Shown here: piece after piece, positions 51,385 to 60,498 of the stretch | How the letters are laid out: every line of letters begins with the position of its first letter | Numbering within the stretch: the first letter of the stretch is position 1 | Assembly: GCA_030697165.1 (NCBI GenBank) | Contig: JAUYQQ010000003.1 | Span: 1 to 64,000, forward strand | Origin: Acidobacteriota bacterium | GTDB taxonomy: Bacteria > Acidobacteriota > Vicinamibacteria > Vicinamibacterales > UBA2999 | Direction: 5' to 3' | Length of the DNA: 64,000 nt | Program-made: the position numbers and the translations under genes | The notes under the pieces: generated by a model | What the model was told of the DNA's origin: nothing | What the model saw: only the letters and a program-made list of their open reading frames with translations | The model's database searches: none

Positions 51385-52020
51385 ATGAGTCAAGAAGGTA
51401 TGACAGGCGTTCCGGGCCCACAGCCCGGCCATTCGCGACGGAACTTCATCAAGGGTGTGATCGCAGCTGGCGCGACCGTTTCTGCGTCGGCATACCTCTT
51501 CCGCACCACCATCATGGGCCAAAACGATGGCATGGCGGGTGCGGTCGAACGTCTCATCACGCTCGACGTCAACGGCCAGCAGCGCCGTGTGGACGTGCTG
51601 AAGAACGAGACGCTCTCCAACACCTTGCGCTACAAGCTCGGTCTGACCGGCACCAAGCTCGGTTGTGACCGGTCGGAGTGTGGCGCCTGCACGGTGCTGG
51701 TGGACGATGTGCCGCGGTATGCGTGTTCAGTGCTGACGCACAGCGTGCGCGGCAAGAAGATTCAGAGCATTGAAGGACTCGCGGCTCCCGATGGCACGCT
51801 GCACCCGGTGCAGCAGGCCGTGGTCGATGGCCAGGGCTTCCAGTGCGCCTTCTGCATGCCGGGCTTCGTTATGGCCACGGTGGGCTTCCTCAAGACCAAT
51901 CCCACGCCGACGCGCGAGCAAATGGCGCACGGCATTTCCGGCAACCTGTGCCGGTGCGCCGATTACAACAAGATCCTGGATGTCATGATGGTGGCAGCCG
52001 ACAAGTCGAGGGGGGCGTAA
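51385..52020 (+). CDS. Tat-exported [2Fe-2S] subunit of molybdenum hydroxylase
   Basis: 211 residues. The twin-arginine signal is SRRNFIKG (17-24) followed by a hydrophobic stretch. The plant-type ferredoxin domain has cluster ligands C94, C99, C102 and C114; the helical domain has C154, C157, C189 and C191 (CAFCMPG, NLCRC). Each binds one [2Fe-2S]. The subunit passes electrons from the molybdopterin subunit and its Tat signal probably exports the folded partner, as for PaoA of E. coli. It is the first of five overlapping or closely spaced genes. Confidence 0.94.
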   Translation: MSQEGMTGVPGPQPGHSRRNFIKGVIAAGATVSASAYLFRTTIMGQNDGMAGAVERLITLDVNGQQRRVDVLKNETLSNTLRYKLGLTGTKLGCDRSECGACTVLVDDVPRYACSVLTHSVRGKKIQSIEGLAAPDGTLHPVQQAVVDGQGFQCAFCMPGFVMATVGFLKTNPTPTREQMAHGISGNLCRCADYNKILDVMMVAADKSRGA

Positions 52021-52023
52021 ACC

Positions 52024-54669
52024 ATGGCTGAACAGCAGAGGCCGGTCGCGCCGGCTACACCCGTCGCGCCGGCCAAGCCCGTCGAGCCGCCCAAGAAGAT
52101 GGAGTTCCGGCTCCTCGGCAAGAATTACGTCACCGCCGACCTGGTCGCGAAGGTCACCGGCAAGGCCAGGTACGCCGAAGACTTTCGTGCCGAGGGCATG
52201 GTCTTCATCAAGTTGATGCCGAGCCCGCGCCCGCATGCGCGCGTGATCAACATCGACGCCTCGGCCGCCCTGGCCATGCCGGGCGTGCACGGCATCCTGA
52301 CCGCCAAGGACTTGCCGGCACCGCCGCCTCCGCCCACACCGCCTCCGGCGGCCGCTCCTCCGGCCCCGGCCGCAGGCGCCGCTCCCGCTGCCGGTGCCGC
52401 TCCGGCTGCTGGCGCCGCTGGCGCACCTGCTGCCGCTGCTGCGGCCGCGCCGCCTTCGCCGCCCATGCCCCCCGAGTTCGCGCTCACCGACGAGCCGGTC
52501 TACGAGGGTGAGCCCATTCTCGCGGTCGCGGCCGACAGCGAAGAGCTGGCCTCCGCTGCGATCGACAAGATCGTCGTCACGTTCGAGCCGCTGCCGTTTG
52601 TGATCGATCCGCTCCAGGCCCTGCGGCCGGGCTCGCCGAACGGTCGCACGCAGGGCAACGTGTTCGTGGGCCCGAGCATGCGCACGCTCAAGTGGACGGC
52701 CGACGACATGGCCATTGTCGATTCCGGCAAGTTCCCCGTGAACGCCGAAGCCACCGAGACCACCGTATTCGGCGATGTCGCGAAGGGCTTCGCCGAAGCC
52801 GATCTCATCGTCGAGCGCGACATGTACCAACAGACCACGTCGCACCAGCCGCTTGAATCGCGGTCGGCCATGGCGTACTGGCAGAACGGCAAGTGCTACA
52901 TGCACGTGTCGACGCAGAGCCTGGCGCGCACGGTGGCGGCAGTGGCCAACTGGGTGGGCGTGAAGCCCGAAGAGCTCGTGCTGATCAGCGAGTACACGGG
53001 CGGCGGTTTCGGCAGCAAGATTCCGGGCGCGCAGTCGATGGCGATTCCGGCGCTGATGTCGAAGAAGCTCAATGGCCGCCCGGTGATGATGCGCATTTCG
53101 CGCGCCGAAGAGACCTACATCGGCCGCACGCGTCCCGGCTATCAGGGCTGGATCAAGATGGGCTTCAAGAAGGACGGCCGCGTCACCGCGATCGACACCT
53201 TCATCGTCGAAGCCGCCGGTCCGTATCGCCGCCAGGGCGATCACGCCACCACCGCGAACCTGGGCTCGTTGTTGTTCCAGGCGCCGAACATGCGCTTCCG
53301 CGGCCTCTCGGTCGCGACGAACACGCCGCCGGGCACGTCGCAGCGGGCGCCGGGCGGGTTGCAGGCCTCGGTCTGGTTCGAGCCGTTGGTGCATGAAGCC
53401 GCGAAGAAACTGGGCATCGACCAGGTCGCGATTCGACGGATGAACGCGCCCGAAGGTCAGGCACTGTTCGGCCTCGTCGCGCCAGACACACCACCGGGAC
53501 GTCCGCGCAACAAGCTGACCAGCTGCTTCGTGAAAGAGTGCCTCGACCAGGGCGCCGAGCTGTTCGGGTGGGAAGCGCGCAAGGCCAACAGCGGCAAGCG
53601 CACCGGCAGCAAGGTGCGTGGCATCGGCGTCGGGACGGGCGCCTACACCGCCGGTTCGATCGGTGTTGACGGCCTCTGCATCCTGCGGCCTGACGGCAAG
53701 CTGGAGATTCACCAGGGCATCGGCAACCTCGGCACGCACTCGGTGATGGACACGGCGCGCGTCATCGCCGAGGTCTCGAATGTGCCGTGGGAAAACTGCG
53801 AAGTGGTCTGGGGCGACACCTCGAAGGGCCTGCCGTGGTCCTCGATCCAGGCGGGCAGCCAGACGACCTACGCCCACACCCGCGCCAACTTCGCGACGGG
53901 CAACGACCTGAAGAAGAAGCTGACCGAGATCGCTGCGAAGGACTTTGGCGGCACCCCGGATCAGTACGACACCAATGCGCAGGGCGTCATCCGCAAGGGC
54001 GGCGGTCTCCGGCTGACCTGGGCCAAGGCGGCCGAACGCGCGATTGCGCTCGGCGGGATCTATGACGGCACGGAAGTGCCGAAGGAACTGAACGCCATGA
54101 CCAAGGCGGCCGCGGCGGCGCACAAGGGCCGGGGGTTGATGGGCGTGGCCCGCGACAACCTGCCGCGTGATGGCCAGACCTACGGCTTCATGTCGGCGTT
54201 TGCCGAAGTCGAGGTCGACGTCGAAACCGGCGTCTGGACCATCGTTGACTTCGTCGGCGTCGCCGACGTCGGCACGGTGATTCACCCGAACTCGCTCGGC
54301 GGCCAGATCAACGGCGGCAGCTTGCAGGGCATCGGCCACATCCGCAGCCAGAAGCTGGTCTACGACCCGCAGTACGGCGCGGGCCTCTCGGGCCGCATGT
54401 ATAACAACAAACCGCCGACGATGCTGGATGTCCCCACCAATGCCAGGTGGGCCGCCGTGGGGCTGCCGGATCCGACCAACCCAACCGGCGCCAAGGGCAT
54501 CGGCGAGCCGTCAACCGTCGCGGCAGCCGGCGCGGTGCTGGCGGCGCTGGCCGACGCGGTCGGCGACGACATCATCCGGCGCACACCGGTGCTGCCGGAA
54601 GACATCGCCGCGACGTTGGCCAACGGACGCAAGTCGATGATGGCCAACCCGCTTCAGGCGTTCATCTAA
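52024..54669 (+). CDS. Molybdopterin-binding subunit of xanthine dehydrogenase family enzyme
   Basis: 881 residues, no signal peptide. The hammerhead domain (about 30-190) is interrupted at 99-150 by a Pro/Ala-rich insert. The cofactor domains have YTGGGFGSKIPG, TSQRAPGGLQASV and GNLGTHSVMDTARV. The active-site Glu is in KGIGEPSTVAAAG near residue 828. Substrate class is uncertain: aldehydes and N-heterocycles are both possible. It likely uses molybdopterin cytosine dinucleotide, as PaoC does, and is exported with the small subunit. A Pro/Ala N-terminal lead of 25 residues precedes the fold. Confidence 0.92.
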   Translation: MAEQQRPVAPATPVAPAKPVEPPKKMEFRLLGKNYVTADLVAKVTGKARYAEDFRAEGMVFIKLMPSPRPHARVINIDASAALAMPGVHGILTAKDLPAPPPPPTPPPAAAPPAPAAGAAPAAGAAPAAGAAGAPAAAAAAAPPSPPMPPEFALTDEPVYEGEPILAVAADSEELASAAIDKIVVTFEPLPFVIDPLQALRPGSPNGRTQGNVFVGPSMRTLKWTADDMAIVDSGKFPVNAEATETTVFGDVAKGFAEADLIVERDMYQQTTSHQPLESRSAMAYWQNGKCYMHVSTQSLARTVAAVANWVGVKPEELVLISEYTGGGFGSKIPGAQSMAIPALMSKKLNGRPVMMRISRAEETYIGRTRPGYQGWIKMGFKKDGRVTAIDTFIVEAAGPYRRQGDHATTANLGSLLFQAPNMRFRGLSVATNTPPGTSQRAPGGLQASVWFEPLVHEAAKKLGIDQVAIRRMNAPEGQALFGLVAPDTPPGRPRNKLTSCFVKECLDQGAELFGWEARKANSGKRTGSKVRGIGVGTGAYTAGSIGVDGLCILRPDGKLEIHQGIGNLGTHSVMDTARVIAEVSNVPWENCEVVWGDTSKGLPWSSIQAGSQTTYAHTRANFATGNDLKKKLTEIAAKDFGGTPDQYDTNAQGVIRKGGGLRLTWAKAAERAIALGGIYDGTEVPKELNAMTKAAAAAHKGRGLMGVARDNLPRDGQTYGFMSAFAEVEVDVETGVWTIVDFVGVADVGTVIHPNSLGGQINGGSLQGIGHIRSQKLVYDPQYGAGLSGRMYNNKPPTMLDVPTNARWAAVGLPDPTNPTGAKGIGEPSTVAAAGAVLAALADAVGDDIIRRTPVLPEDIAATLANGRKSMMANPLQAFI
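52318..52473. repeat. Low-complexity Pro/Ala-coding insert
   Basis: GCC/GCT/CCG-rich sequence with repeats such as GCTGCCGGTGCCGCTCC encodes APPPPPTPPP and AAGAAPAAGAAPAAG-type runs. It interrupts the hammerhead domain of the molybdopterin subunit (residues 99-150). Confidence 0.85.
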
Positions 54670-54682
54670 AGGGGAAACGAAG

Positions 54683-55696
54683 ATGCCACCGATTCGTGAC
54701 GTAATGTCGGCATTTGAGCTCTTCCAACCCGCGAGTGTGGGTGATGCGCTCGGAATTCTCGACCGCCATGGCGCCGACGCCTGGGTGATGGCCGGCGGGA
54801 TGGATACCTTCGACTGGTTGAAGGATCGCATCAAGCAGCCGAAGGTCGTCGTTGACCTCGGCATGGTCGATGAACTGCGCGGCATCAAGGACGCCGCCGG
54901 CGGCCTCGAGATCGGCGCCATGACGACGCTGACGACGGTTGCCAACGACCCGTTGGTCAAGGAGCGGTTCCCGCTGCTGGCCGAGGCGGCGTTGATTGTC
55001 GCCTCGCCGCAGATTCGCAACCAGGGCACCGTCGGCGGCAACGTGTCGCAGGACGCGCGCTGCTGGTACTACCGCGCCGGCTGGCCGTGTTATCGCGCCG
55101 GTGGCAACATCTGCTACGCCGACACGCCTACGGCGCTCAATCGCGAGCACGCGATCTTCAACGCCGACCGGTGTGTCGCGGTGAACCCGTCCGACACGGC
55201 CCCAGCGCTCGTCGCGCTCGATGCCGAGTTCGTGATCAGGCGCGGCTCGGCCGAGCGCGTCGTGCCGGCCCGCGAGTTCTTCATCGGCCCCGGCATCGAC
55301 ATCACCCGGCTCACGGTGCTGCGACAGGGCGATTTGCTTACCGCGATCCGCATCCCGGCCACGTGGGCAGGGAAGGCGCACTACTTCGAGAAGGTGCGCG
55401 ATCGCCAGGTGTGGGACTTCGCGCTGGTCAACATTGCCGCCTCGCTGAACATGTCGGGTTCGACCATCAGCGAATCACGCATGGTGATCAACGGCGTGTC
55501 CGCCGAACCGATGCGGCTCGACGCGGTCGAGGCCGCCATCAGGGGCAAGGCCCGCGACCAGGCCACGGCCGACCTCGCGGCCGACCTCGCCGTGCAGGGC
55601 GCGGTGCCGCTCAAACACAACGCGTACAAGATCCCGCTGGTCAAGGCGCTGGTGAAGCGCGCCATTCGTGGAGAGGCTGAATGGACAACTTCGTAG
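54683..55696 (+). CDS. FAD-binding (and probably [4Fe-4S]) subunit of molybdenum hydroxylase
   Basis: 337 residues. The FAD-binding PCMH-type fold has MAGGMDTFDWLKD and QIRNQGTVGGNVSQDARCWYY. Four cysteines follow in a loop (RCWYYRAGWPCYRAGGNICYAD...RCVAV in pieces), the pattern that binds an additional [4Fe-4S] in PaoB and 4-hydroxybenzoyl-CoA reductase. NPSDTAPALVALDA is typical. The subunit links the [2Fe-2S] chain to an acceptor. It lacks its own signal peptide. Its 3' end overlaps the cytochrome b gene by 16 nt. Confidence 0.92.
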   Translation: MPPIRDVMSAFELFQPASVGDALGILDRHGADAWVMAGGMDTFDWLKDRIKQPKVVVDLGMVDELRGIKDAAGGLEIGAMTTLTTVANDPLVKERFPLLAEAALIVASPQIRNQGTVGGNVSQDARCWYYRAGWPCYRAGGNICYADTPTALNREHAIFNADRCVAVNPSDTAPALVALDAEFVIRRGSAERVVPAREFFIGPGIDITRLTVLRQGDLLTAIRIPATWAGKAHYFEKVRDRQVWDFALVNIAASLNMSGSTISESRMVINGVSAEPMRLDAVEAAIRGKARDQATADLAADLAVQGAVPLKHNAYKIPLVKALVKRAIRGEAEWTTS

Positions 55697-56514
55697 AATG
55701 GGCGCGCAGCCCGTGGGGTGAGTCGGTTCTCGTCCACATCTCATGGGATCTGTTCTGGGCGGCGCTCGTTGGCGGCCTGTTGTTCCTGCTCGCGCACGCT
55801 GGCTACATGCTGTTCTCGCAGCACCACAAGCGCGAGGCGTCCGAGGTGGATCGCATGGAGGCCGACATGAAGGGTCTCCCGGCGAACATCCTGCGCCACA
55901 GCTTCGTGTCGCGGGTGTTCCACTGGGTGATGGCGTTTGCCATGCTGACCCTGTTGATCACCGCGTTCCTGCCCATCGTCGGGGTCCAGTTCGCGTGGGT
56001 CTACTGGCACTGGATGGCCGGCATCCTGCTGACCGCGTCGATCATGTTCCACATCGTGCACGCCACCTTCGTCCTCGACTTCTGGTCGATCTGGGTGGGG
56101 CCGCGGGACATCCCGGAGTTCAAGGCCGAGATGCTGCGTGAAGTGGGCATCGACGCGCCGGGGCCCAAGCCGGGCAAGTATCCGCTCGGCAACCGCCTCT
56201 ATCACCTCGCGGTGATGGTGGCTGGGCTGGCGGTGATCGCGACCGGCATCCTGATGATGTGGCGCGTGCGTACCGGGATCGTCGAACGCAACCCATACAT
56301 CCTGAGCGACGCCACGTGGGGCATCACCTACGTCGTGCACGGCTTGATGGGCGTCGGCTTCGTCGGCCTGGTCATCGCGCACATCTACTTCGCGCTGCGG
56401 CCCGAGAAGCTCTGGATCACCAAGTCGATGATCTTCGGCACCATCTCGCGCCGGCAGTACCTCGAGCACCACGATCCGGATCGCTGGGTCGCCGACAAGT
56501 CCGGTTCCAATTGA
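55681..56514 (+). CDS. Formate-dehydrogenase-gamma-like membrane cytochrome b
   Basis: 277 residues, about five membrane helices (near 25-45, 75-95, 105-125, 170-192, 218-240). Helices carry His residues suited to two b-type haems (HSFVSRVFHWVMAF, YWHWMAGILL, FHIVHATF, VVHGLMGVGFVGLVIAHIYFAL). SRVFHWVMAFAMLTLLITAFLPI is typical of FdnI/cytochrome b561-type subunits. It could pass electrons from the periplasmic hydroxylase to quinone. PaoABC lacks such an anchor, so this gives the enzyme a respiratory link. The TTG of the next gene overlaps its stop. Confidence 0.88.
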   Translation: MDNFVEWARSPWGESVLVHISWDLFWAALVGGLLFLLAHAGYMLFSQHHKREASEVDRMEADMKGLPANILRHSFVSRVFHWVMAFAMLTLLITAFLPIVGVQFAWVYWHWMAGILLTASIMFHIVHATFVLDFWSIWVGPRDIPEFKAEMLREVGIDAPGPKPGKYPLGNRLYHLAVMVAGLAVIATGILMMWRVRTGIVERNPYILSDATWGITYVVHGLMGVGFVGLVIAHIYFALRPEKLWITKSMIFGTISRRQYLEHHDPDRWVADKSGSN

Positions 56515-57024: not shown

Positions 57025-57681
57025 CTACGCCGGCCGCCAGAGTTCTGGCAACGCCGCTACCGACTGGACCAGATGTGTATGCGGCGAGCGCGCGAGCGCG
57101 TCTCGCCCGTGCGCCCCTGACAACACCCCGATATTCCAGCCCACACCCGCAGCCGCGCCTGCCTCCAGGTCCAGCGTCGTATCGCCCACGGTAGCGACCG
57201 TCGTGGGACGGGTCACGCCGGTCTCGGCCATCGCCCGCAGGATCAGATCCGGTGCCGGGCGGCCCTGCGCCACATCATCACCGCACACGATGGTGTCGGC
57301 GACGTCCTGCCAGGACAGCGCCGCAATCAACAGGTTGGTGATGTCGCGGTCGAAGCCGGTCGTCAGCGCCACCCTGGCGCCCGCGTGGCGCAGTGCCTGG
57401 AAGCACTCGGCCGCCCCGGGGATGGGATTGACACGATCGGCCTCAAACCGCGCGGCCAACGCCAACTGAAATGCGGCATAGACCCGGGATGCCTCGGCGT
57501 CGCTGGCGACAAACGCCCGGATGGCCTGTCGCTTCGATGCGCCACGCACCCGCGTGATCTGCTCGGCGGTGGCGACAATGCCATGCGCCGCGAGGGCCGC
57601 GGTGAAGGCCGCCGGCACCTGGCCGCGATCCTCGATGGTGGTGCCGGCCAGGTCGAACACGACGAGGGCCGGTAACGTCAA
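57025..57681 (-). CDS. HAD-superfamily hydrolase (phosphonatase-like)
   Basis: 218 residues from TTG 57681, which overlaps the upstream stop codon (TTGA). Motif I is VVFDLAGTTIEDRG (nucleophile Asp10), with the AGTT form common in phosphonoacetaldehyde-hydrolase-like HADs. A helical cap (about 18-85), motif II LTTGFDR, motif III GRPAPDLI and motif IV VGDTTLDLEAG follow. It likely dephosphorylates a small metabolite. No phosphonate genes are nearby, so a true phosphonatase role is unsupported. Confidence 0.85.
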   Translation of the reverse strand: MTLPALVVFDLAGTTIEDRGQVPAAFTAALAAHGIVATAEQITRVRGASKRQAIRAFVASDAEASRVYAAFQLALAARFEADRVNPIPGAAECFQALRHAGARVALTTGFDRDITNLLIAALSWQDVADTIVCGDDVAQGRPAPDLILRAMAETGVTRPTTVATVGDTTLDLEAGAAAGVGWNIGVLSGAHGRDALARSPHTHLVQSVAALPELWRPA

Positions 57682-58112
57682 GACTTGGCGTCCGGCCGCG
57701 TTTCCGATGTGGCGTCCGGCTTTAGCCGGACCAAATCCGGCATCAGGAATGTTCGTTTCGCCAGGTCGGACGACAGCAGCGCCTTCGAGTAGTAGCGATC
57801 GAGAATGGACGGCTGCCACGTCAGCAGATCCTGATTAGCGGCGGCAAATGCCGGCCAGGTCGCTTGCGGGTCGCGCGCCTGGCGCTCGGCGATGATCAGC
57901 AGGAACGCCCACGTGATGGTCTCGTGGTACAGCCCGTGCGCCCCCTTGGCGGCGGCGAAGCGCTTGAGGGCCTCGCTGAACTCGCCGAGAGCCGCAGGCA
58001 TGCTGTGCTGCTGGACGAACAGCCATGCCATGTGCACGTGCTGCCGGTGATGAAATTGATCGGCGGGCAGGGACGTGTCGAGAAAACTGTCGCAGAGTTC
58101 ACGCTCGGTCAT
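57678..58112 (-). CDS. Conserved hypothetical protein with repeat-derived C-terminus
   Basis: 144 residues. A helical protein with His-rich FHHRQHVHMAWLFVQQHS near residues 20-37, GLYHETITWAFLLIIAERQ near 60-78 and a tail containing LDRYYSKALLSSDLAKRTF. The conserved His residues resemble a small family of uncharacterised proteins I cannot name. The final 18 residues (LVRLKPDATSETRPDAKS) and stop codon come from the palindromic repeats at 57683-57732. It starts at ATG 58112 and precedes the HAD gene, whose start overlaps its stop. Confidence 0.7.
   Translation of the reverse strand: MTERELCDSFLDTSLPADQFHHRQHVHMAWLFVQQHSMPAALGEFSEALKRFAAAKGAHGLYHETITWAFLLIIAERQARDPQATWPAFAAANQDLLTWQPSILDRYYSKALLSSDLAKRTFLMPDLVRLKPDATSETRPDAKS
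57683..57732. repeat. TTTA-loop palindrome, one full and one partial copy
   Basis: GATGTGGCGTCCGGCTTTAG then CCGGACC (57706-57732) is the full copy. CTTGGCGTCCGGCCGCG (57684-57700) is a partial one. Both are read on the minus strand as the tail of the hypothetical gene 57678-58112. Confidence 0.9.
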
Positions 58113-58221: not shown

Positions 58222-60498
58222 CTATCTCCGTGCGACCGACGTACCGGGCTGCTGTGGCGCCACCGCTGCCAGTGCCATCGCCGCCCAGGCAGTGCCGGCG
58301 GTCGAGATGAACTGGTCGCGTCCATACGGGAAGCCGCTCTCGAAGTACGGCTGCAGCCAGATGGCTCGCGTTTGCACGTGCCAGGTTCCGTCCGCCGCCT
58401 GCGTCCTCAGCAGGTAATCGATACCCTTTTGGACGGCCGGGTCGGTCGAGGGTAATTTGCCGGCAATCAACAGGGCGAAAAGCGCCTGCCCCGTGGCATA
58501 GGCGTCGGCCGGCATCCCGGGCAGCTGCTGCCAACCGCCATCCGGCTGCTGCAGCGCAATGAGCGCGCGGGCGGAGCTCTTCGCGTTTTCGGCCCCGTCG
58601 TTCGCCCAGGCGAGCGCCAAAGCATGGAACGCGCGGTCCTGTGTCGTGCGCGGGGTCGCGGTTTCCAACCACCGCACCGCGCGCGCGATCGCCTCGCTAC
58701 CGCGGGTGGTCATGCCCGCGGGCGTGTAGTGCTTCAGCGCGAAGATGCACACCGCCGCCGACTGGAAGTCGCCGGCGTTCATCGGCGGTCGCCGGCTCTC
58801 GTTGCCCGACCAGCTGCCATTGGCCGACTGCATCGACAGAATGGCGCGCGCCGCGCCGTCGGTGAACGCGCTCTTTGGCACCCCGTTCATGCCGAAGTCC
58901 ACCAGTTCCCACGCGATGCTCGGCGCGCTGATGACACCGCTCAGGTCCATCAACCGGTCTGGCGAGGGCAGCATTGACTGCGGCAGCTGCGGTATGTCGT
59001 GCGCGATGCGCAGCCCTCGGCTGCGTGCGTAGCCGACGACGGCGGACGGCAGGTCCTGGGAGTGGCACGAGTTGCAGCCGCCCACGCGGATGAAGGTGTG
59101 GCTTTGCGTGACAATCATGGCGAGTGCCTGAGAAATGGCGTCGGCAATTGGGCGTCGCGTGCCAGCACCGACCGAGAGGTGCGATGCCACCGCGGCAACC
59201 TGGGCGGGCGTGACGCCGCCAAGGAGGCGGGTGACCTCGGTGTCGCCGCGCCGGCTGGCCATGTCGCGCGCCGTCTCGTCGTAGTCGCCAACGAAGCTCG
59301 TATCGGCGCCCTTGGCGAGCAGCGTCTTGACGACGCCGGCCGGGACCGCGTCGGAGCTGGCGGCCAGCAACAACGGCGAGTACCCGCGGACGTTACGGAC
59401 GTTCACCTCGGCGCCATGCTCGAGCAGCAGATCGACGGTGCCCTCGACGCCCGCCGTGCTGGCGTTGCCGAGGGCTGTTTCATTCCGTTTCGTGCGGGCC
59501 TGCACGTCCGCGCCTTTTTCAATGAGGAACCGGACCGCGGCCGGTGACCCGTCGCCCGAGGCCAGGATCAGCGCGGTTTCGCCGGCGCCGTTTCTGGCGT
59601 CGACGGTCGCGTTCGCGGCCACGAGCATGCGCATCACCTCGAGGTCGCCGCGCTGGGCGGCCGCCATCAGGGGCGTGCGCCCGTTGGCCATCGCCAAGTT
59701 CGGATCGGCGCCGGCCGCCAGCAGCTGCTTGACGACGGAGTGCGTGTTCGACATGGCGGCGGCTTGATAGAGTGGCGTGCGCCCCTCGACCTGCTTCACG
59801 TTGACGGCTGCGCCGCGAGCAATGAGTAGCCGCACTTTCGCCTCGTTGTCGATGCCCCAGTGCAGCGGGGTCGAGCCGCGACGGTTCTTCGCGTTCACCT
59901 CGGCCCCTGCGTCGAGCAGCATCGTCATCGTGTCGATCGTACCGAAGCCGGCCGCGTGATGGAGCAACGTCGATCCCCCCGGGTCCGCGCTCCTGGCCGA
60001 ATCACGACTGGCGGCGAGGAGCGGTTTCACCTGGGCCTTCGATGTTGTCCGCACGGCAGTGATCAGGGCGGCCAGCATTGGATCGATGGGCCTGGGCGGC
60101 GCTTCGTCGGCCACCTCGTTGACAAATTCCGCGCCCTGATCGACCCAGGCGCGCAGCAGGCCGACCTCTTCCGCGAGCAGCGCACCGGTCGGGGGCATCT
60201 GCATGCCGCCATCGCCGCCAACCAGGCGGTGAATCAGCTTGCTCTCCGTGCTCTTCCCGGGGACGATCACCGGGCCGTAGTCGCCGCCCCGCAGCGCGTT
60301 CTGCCGCAAGTCAAGACGGAGGCCGGCCTGCTGCACCTCGGGCCCATGGCAGCTGTAGCAGTTCTGCTGCAACAGCGGTTTTACGTCTTTCGTGTAGTCC
60401 ACCTTCGTCGTGGCCGCGGGCGGCAGCTGAGCCTGCGCCGCGGCCAGCATCGGCACCGACAGTACCGAGACGAACGCCACCGATTGAACGAATCTCAT
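58222..60498 (-). CDS. Secreted cytochrome c-ankyrin-alpha/alpha-toroid fusion protein
   Basis: 758 residues. A signal peptide (1-22, ending AQA) precedes a cytochrome c domain with CYSCH (Cys47, Cys50, His51) and a candidate axial Met at 99 or 101 (MQMPP), similar to PSCyt1 domains. About seven ankyrin repeats span 175-430 (STLLHHAAGFGTIDTMTMLL, GRTPLMAAAQRGDLEVMRML). A second haem site CNSCH (475-479) follows. The C-terminal 545-745 has toroid repeats like prenyltransferases and cyclases (QSANGSWSG, QQPDGGWQQLP, TQAADGTWHVQ). A periplasmic redox scaffold is likely; the enzymatic role, if any, is unknown. GGAGGA precedes ATG 60498. Confidence 0.85.
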   Translation of the reverse strand: MRFVQSVAFVSVLSVPMLAAAQAQLPPAATTKVDYTKDVKPLLQQNCYSCHGPEVQQAGLRLDLRQNALRGGDYGPVIVPGKSTESKLIHRLVGGDGGMQMPPTGALLAEEVGLLRAWVDQGAEFVNEVADEAPPRPIDPMLAALITAVRTTSKAQVKPLLAASRDSARSADPGGSTLLHHAAGFGTIDTMTMLLDAGAEVNAKNRRGSTPLHWGIDNEAKVRLLIARGAAVNVKQVEGRTPLYQAAAMSNTHSVVKQLLAAGADPNLAMANGRTPLMAAAQRGDLEVMRMLVAANATVDARNGAGETALILASGDGSPAAVRFLIEKGADVQARTKRNETALGNASTAGVEGTVDLLLEHGAEVNVRNVRGYSPLLLAASSDAVPAGVVKTLLAKGADTSFVGDYDETARDMASRRGDTEVTRLLGGVTPAQVAAVASHLSVGAGTRRPIADAISQALAMIVTQSHTFIRVGGCNSCHSQDLPSAVVGYARSRGLRIAHDIPQLPQSMLPSPDRLMDLSGVISAPSIAWELVDFGMNGVPKSAFTDGAARAILSMQSANGSWSGNESRRPPMNAGDFQSAAVCIFALKHYTPAGMTTRGSEAIARAVRWLETATPRTTQDRAFHALALAWANDGAENAKSSARALIALQQPDGGWQQLPGMPADAYATGQALFALLIAGKLPSTDPAVQKGIDYLLRTQAADGTWHVQTRAIWLQPYFESGFPYGRDQFISTAGTAWAAMALAAVAPQQPGTSVARR

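Follow-up and report, generated by a model that had tools for sequence, protein, structure and literature searches.

A CxxCH motif with a downstream methionine is the pattern of His/Met electron-transfer c-type cytochromes. Bacterial cytochrome c peroxidase, MauG and RoxA contain one electron-transfer haem and one catalytic haem. According to the available part of PMC5615132, some Verrucomicrobia contain many PSCyt proteins, which are of unknown function. The same part describes PSCyt domains combined with PSD, with carbohydrate-binding domains or with domains for protein interaction, WD40 among them, again with function unknown, and suggests a role for PSCyt proteins in carbohydrate metabolism. 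In the available sections of PMC7567364 and PMC9426514, the ankyrin proteins AnkB and Cj1386 are reported to help catalase, probably by way of haem.

Here, we describe a protein in which a PSCyt1 domain, ankyrin repeats and a toroid share one chain. The gene lies on the reverse strand of the window (58222..60498), as do all of its features given below. By window, we mean the whole 64,000-nucleotide stretch of Acidobacteriota DNA that was analysed. The open reading frame (ORF) begins with ATG and encodes 758 residues. Approximately residues 1-23 (60430..60498) are a predicted Sec signal peptide, as judged by eye. In Pfam searches, the 758-residue protein matched PSCyt1 (PF07635) at residues 47-105 with 64.5 bits, against a cut-off of 22, and Ank_2 with 187.5 bits; tandem 33-residue repeats are present. 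The C-terminal part scored 29.3 bits for SQHop_cyclase_N, above the cut-off of 26.2, and 25.9 bits for SQHop_cyclase_C, barely below the cut-off of 26.1. Four of the five cysteines sit in two CxxCH motifs, CYSCH at residues 47-51 and CNSCH at 475-479. When the residues were shuffled 100,000 times, two CxxCH motifs never appeared and one appeared in 40 shuffles. A full-length AlphaFold2 model, made from an alignment of 55 sequences including the window's own, had a mean pLDDT of 85.4 and a pTM of 0.86. The first-pass annotation had read one secreted chain with a PSCyt1-like CYSCH haem site, ankyrin repeats, a second site at CNSCH and an alpha/alpha toroid. Profiles and models confirm this architecture in a single, apparently exported ORF, with haem itself predicted at both motifs. 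The annotation knew of no described function for the combination. No characterised homologue with the PSCyt1-ankyrin-toroid architecture was found in the open-access literature.

Relatives were collected by scanning 84,980 species, one genome each. Two patterns, DAYATG... and E-S/T-G-F/Y-P...Q, were used for the scan; the toroid CxxCH is part of neither. At least 592 stretches matched. Relatives are encoded by at least 545 of them, of which the best 80 loci were analysed. Because the scan used residues 665-674 and 720-729, conservation there is partly selected. The best 80 of the at least 545 loci are nearly all from metagenome bins, and their proportions are not those of the whole family. By record title, these 80 are mostly Acidobacteriota, with relatives from Planctomycetota (L097, L103, L108 and L115), Verrucomicrobiota (L044, L053 and L077) and one bin labelled Acidimicrobiia (L116). 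The three Verrucomicrobiota bins hold close relatives of the window protein; two of them, L044 and L053, are placed among Acidobacteriota in the tree, by gene transfer or mis-binning.

When 297 genomes were sampled evenly across the phylum, 13 of them, the protein's own among these, were positive at E 1e-20. Hence, the family is patchy in the phylum. Among 60 own and related genomes, at least ten, again counting the protein's own, have matches extending into the toroid. The gene is present once in the own genome. In genome G002, from the same genus, the copy (L080) is a toroid remnant of 200 residues that lacks the haem motif; decay of the gene is thus possible in close relatives. One scan of viral contigs gave 53 pattern matches, none of which was confirmed as a relative. 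Among plasmids, 188 records matched, none over more than 80% of the query, and the five matches listed span mainly the ankyrin part.

The PSCyt1 domain covers residues 33-125 (60124..60402). Its CYSCH motif (residues 47-51; 60346..60360) has C47, C50 and H51 in place. Met101 (60196..60198) probably serves as the distal ligand to the first haem, a role that we presume from general knowledge of c-type cytochromes. We aligned the protein with 54 relatives chosen for having two CxxCH motifs 380-450 residues apart (alignment A2, in which L077 and L092 have a cut C-terminus). The PSCyt1 profile matches all 55 rows (E 0.001) and Met101 is unchanged in all 55. Since the relatives were picked for having the first CxxCH, its invariance in A2 is not independent. 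Among the best 80 of at least 545 loci, the profile matches 68 ORFs in 64 loci. Of these ORFs, 67 contain CxxCH and the single miss, L075, is cut by a contig end. Met-Pro occurs in 66 of the 68, the two misses being weak matches to other ORFs. The predicted His51/Met101 ligation would fit electron transfer between haems. The own genome has eight PSCyt1 matches and two matches to a cytochrome c assembly family. Several of this genome's ankyrin and PSCyt1 matches are grouped on contig C23 (G000) at 227-304 kb.

Residues 140-429 (59212..60081) form the ankyrin spacer, assigned from Pfam Ank families and AlphaFold2 helices as approximately eight repeats and an N-terminal helical pair. The first-pass annotation counted about seven repeats. 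The repeats are real and the number was slightly low; AlphaFold2 places eight ankyrin-like helical pairs from residue 178 and one further pair at 140-163. Full-length Foldseek matches listed are ankyrin proteins and complexes. At least two ankyrin repeats were found in the same ORF in 64, and in an adjacent ORF in 7, of the best 80 of at least 545 loci. The remaining nine failed this test, four of them being cut or truncated. Ankyrins follow the toroid, the reverse of the order in the window, in L020, L021, L131, L132 and probably L113, which sit on separate tree branches. In the best-80 set, all 54 relatives' ORFs that hold both CxxCH motifs have them 411-432 residues apart, and no ORF with two motifs fell outside the 380-450 range used to pick A2. 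This spread is smaller than one ankyrin repeat. Hence, the number of repeats is fixed.

All of the best 80 of at least 545 loci contain a toroid ORF. By the PSCyt1 profile, PSCyt1 and toroid share one ORF in 55 loci, PSCyt1 occupies a separate same-strand upstream ORF in 9, and 16 have no PSCyt1. Two of the nine, L043 and L104, resemble broken frames. The true split pairs number seven (L087, L091, L094, L095, L096, L098 and L118). In these, a PSCyt1-ankyrin gene is followed by a haem-toroid gene that has its own signal-like N-terminus, as judged by eye. The two genes are separated by 3, 9, 12 or 42 bp, or overlap by 4 bp (three pairs). When 82 toroids were placed in a tree, the split state required five changes, at least four of which are forced by well supported branches. 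The tree labelled L075 as without PSCyt1, although it was counted as fused on a 33-residue piece at the contig end; L044 and L105 begin close to contig ends. Together, these labels inflate the changes between fused and PSCyt1-less states; changes of the split state are unaffected. The unit has thus repeatedly changed between a single fused gene and a pair of neighbours, so the PSCyt1-ankyrin and toroid halves very likely work together. This repeated fusion and splitting is the strongest evidence for joint action. Among the 16 loci with no PSCyt1, four run off the upstream contig end (L070, L083, L106 and L120), three begin near a contig end (L044, L105 and L114) and one is truncated (L080). 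Eight appear really to be without PSCyt1 (L093, L099, L100, L102, L110, L113, L115 and L116). Hence, as uncut relatives such as L093 and L099 indicate, the toroid can do without PSCyt1.

The haem-toroid module spans residues 450-746 (58261..59151). AlphaFold2 modelled the toroid by itself with a pLDDT of 87.7 and a pTM of 0.88 (47 sequences), and structure matches to class II terpene cyclases bear out the alpha/alpha toroid proposed in the annotation. VIA-align gave Z 23.1 to drimenyl diphosphate synthase (7xqz; 262 residues, rmsd 3.5, 17% identity). Among the matches listed, squalene-hopene cyclases reached Z 21-23, oxidosqualene cyclases 19-23, and sugar-active toroids such as GH105 and GH88 18.6-20.6. 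By helix order in the model, the CNSCH motif (residues 475-479; 59062..59076) is carried by the first toroid loop leading from an outer helix to an inner one. The annotation had named loss of CxxCH in close relatives as evidence against its reading. Intact copies keep it: the toroid motif is present in 78 of the best 80 of at least 545 loci, the misses being the truncated L080 and L083, which is cut by a contig end. We also prepared a 75-row toroid alignment, which leaves out L070, L077, L080, L083, L092 and L120. CxxCH is found in 75/75 rows and the residue before its second Cys is always small (72 S, 2 A and 1 G). A cytochrome c555 profile matched weakly over CNSCH (E 6.6e-6 for the whole sequence, with no single stretch passing). 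Beyond H479, no Met or His is invariant in the 75 rows. M741 (Met in 64/75) or H707 (His in 50/75) might be the distal ligand in most members. Five distant toroids (L126-L130) have CxxCH at the same profile position, 5/5, pointing to a wider haem-toroid superfamily. In their ORFs, no ankyrin or PSCyt1 was seen.

We assigned the two toroid faces by helix order in the AlphaFold2 model, assuming regular alternation. In the 75-row alignment, 31 of 83 positions in loops of the haem-motif face are conserved at 90% or more, and 17 of these are invariant. The equivalent figure for the other face is 1 of 42, with none invariant. Among helices, 24/87 inner and 8/84 outer positions are conserved to this level. 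With the scan peptides removed, the counts are 26/76 for haem-face loops (15 invariant), 1/42 for other-face loops, 16/74 for inner helices and 8/84 for outer helices. Since inner helices are also conserved, part of the signal may be packing. Three motifs stand out. The RPP motif (residues 570-572; 58783..58791) is in a haem-face loop outside the scan patterns, with R570 and P572 in 75/75. DAYATG (residues 665-670; 58489..58506) is on the same face, with D665 in 75/75, partly selected by the scan. The stretch from R711 to S732, containing QPYFESGFPYGRDQFIS (58303..58368), covers part of the haem-motif face and the beginning of the last inner helix, with P717, P724, Q729 and S732 in 75/75. Outside the scan peptides, the conserved residues include R570, P572, Q650, R711, Q716 and P717, all in haem-face loops, together with S732, in the last inner helix; the peptides themselves contain D665, D728 and Q729. 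Scan-pattern bias and the choice of rows lower the weight of some counts. The asymmetry between faces and the pairing of genes stand. Because the CNSCH loop shares its face with this conserved polar cluster, we take that face, haem included, to be the functional site. The annotation's further suggestion, that the toroid may bind a hydrophobic ligand, is unsupported: the conserved residues of the haem face include R570, Q650, D665, R711 and Q716, and the cyclase DxDD motif is missing in 75/75.

Our leading interpretation, given tentatively and at a little short of an even chance, is that of an exported two-haem redox protein in which PSCyt1 passes electrons and the toroid haem is a binding or catalytic site. 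Briefly, the signal-like start, seen by eye, suggests that the protein would be exported to the periplasm or surface. The N-terminal PSCyt1 domain would bind a His/Met haem and relay single electrons. The ankyrin arc would be a fixed-length scaffold, positioning the two haem modules or docking a partner. The second haem would be covalently attached in the first loop of the C-terminal alpha/alpha toroid. Since there is no invariant second protein ligand, the most plausible state of this haem is five-coordinate or weakly ligated, which would leave it free to bind a small molecule or substrate. Its use would most likely be catalytic, peroxidase- or oxygenase-like.

The genes around these loci bear on the alternatives. 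By ORF clustering of the best 80 of at least 545 loci, no neighbour is shared by more than nine, place and strand vary, and no neighbour gene indicates a pathway. Small sets of loci do share a neighbour; L052, L056, L058 and L062, for example, all closely related in the tree, have the same downstream gene on the opposite strand. In the window, a same-strand glycosyltransferase gene lies approximately 490 bp upstream and, 109 bp downstream on the same strand, a 144-residue ORF overlaps a HAD-type hydrolase gene. The hydrolase (57025-57819) scores above the NCBIfam threshold of a PhnX-like, phosphonatase-like family (231.1 bits, against a cut-off of 218.9). Further away, four plus-strand genes (51385-56514) encode a TAT-signal 2Fe-2S subunit, whose TAT profile match is below the cut-off, molybdopterin and FAD subunits, and a cytochrome b561-type membrane protein. 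The product is probably a molybdenum hydroxylase that is exported and has a dedicated electron acceptor in the membrane. A promoter and terminator search found nothing promoter-like and two terminator-like sequences, against 1.9 expected by chance.

The absence of a shared enzyme neighbour in the ORF clustering would suit a two-haem protein that binds or senses without catalysis. In such a protein, the toroid face would bind a ligand or protein partner, and redox state would be reported or relayed by the haems. The toroid Foldseek matches listed also contain complement thioester domains, in which the toroid does not act as an ordinary enzyme, and this too agrees. However, a conserved polar cluster near an apparently open haem would resemble an active site more than a docking surface. 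We consider non-catalytic binding or sensing somewhat unlikely, though a serious contender.

Alternatively, the protein may be a helper that delivers haem to a separate haem enzyme, or protects it, as AnkB and Cj1386 do with catalase. Catalase activity or the supply of haem indeed depends on ankyrin proteins in the cases that PMC9426514 and PMC7567364 describe in the sections available; those sections, however, mention no covalent haem site in the catalase helpers. Furthermore, the catalase matches of the own genome are on contigs C19 (full) and C9 (partial), away from the gene on C3, and no widely shared neighbour emerged from ORF clustering of the best 80 of at least 545 loci. A helper role is improbable on this evidence.

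The toroid CxxCH could instead bind zinc, with D665 as the fourth ligand. Lanthipeptide cyclases (LanC) and protein prenyltransferases have zinc sites in toroid folds. Farnesyltransferase is in the list of toroid Foldseek matches, and D665 is present in 75/75 rows, partly through selection by the scan. Against zinc are the small residue ahead of the second Cys in 75/75, the cytochrome partner in most of the best 80 of at least 545 loci, and the weak cytochrome c555 match across CNSCH. We regard zinc binding as very improbable. Least credible of all is a class II terpene cyclase or hopanoid-modifying enzyme: the best structure matches and the SQHop_cyclase_N score above its cut-off fit such an enzyme, but identity to class II cyclases is only 13-19%, sugar-active toroids follow at Z 18.6-20.6, and cyclase identity was set aside because DxDD is missing in 75/75.

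A bolder form of the redox protein interpretation is that the haem-toroid defines a new class of haem enzyme. It would use a cyclase-like fold that has no DxDD, with a covalent haem on the barrel's loop face beside a conserved Arg/Asp/Gln cluster, fed by PSCyt1 through an ankyrin ruler of fixed length and encoded as a fusion or a gene pair. We think this unlikely as a complete description. To our knowledge, such use of the terpene-cyclase fold is not known from elsewhere, if haem at CNSCH is true. In this family, PSCyt1 is linked to a specific partner for which a functional face is predicted. That the PSCyt1-ankyrin-toroid unit is widespread, and split into adjacent genes, goes beyond what one sequence could reveal. 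The natural two-gene versions also let each half be made and assayed apart.

Compared with described systems, the protein has the same N-terminal cytochrome c domain, with CxxCH and Met, as the PSCyt1 proteins (PF07635) of Planctomycetota and Verrucomicrobiota. Its pairing with ankyrins and a toroid is not named among the PSCyt architectures in the available part of PMC5615132. Like the class II terpene cyclases, including squalene-hopene cyclase and drimenyl diphosphate synthase, it has an alpha/alpha toroid with QW-type loops (VIA Z 19-23). Unlike them, its toroid has a CxxCH in the first loop and no DxDD, at 13-19% identity. It shares with AnkB and Cj1386 a link between a bacterial ankyrin protein and haem (PMC7567364 and PMC9426514, available sections). 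In contrast to those catalase helpers, the ankyrin arc here connects two haem-motif modules, and the catalase gene is elsewhere. Cytochrome c peroxidase, MauG and RoxA are absent among the profile and structure matches listed, so the likeness to them is a functional analogy only: a predicted division between a His/Met haem and a haem with no fixed second ligand.
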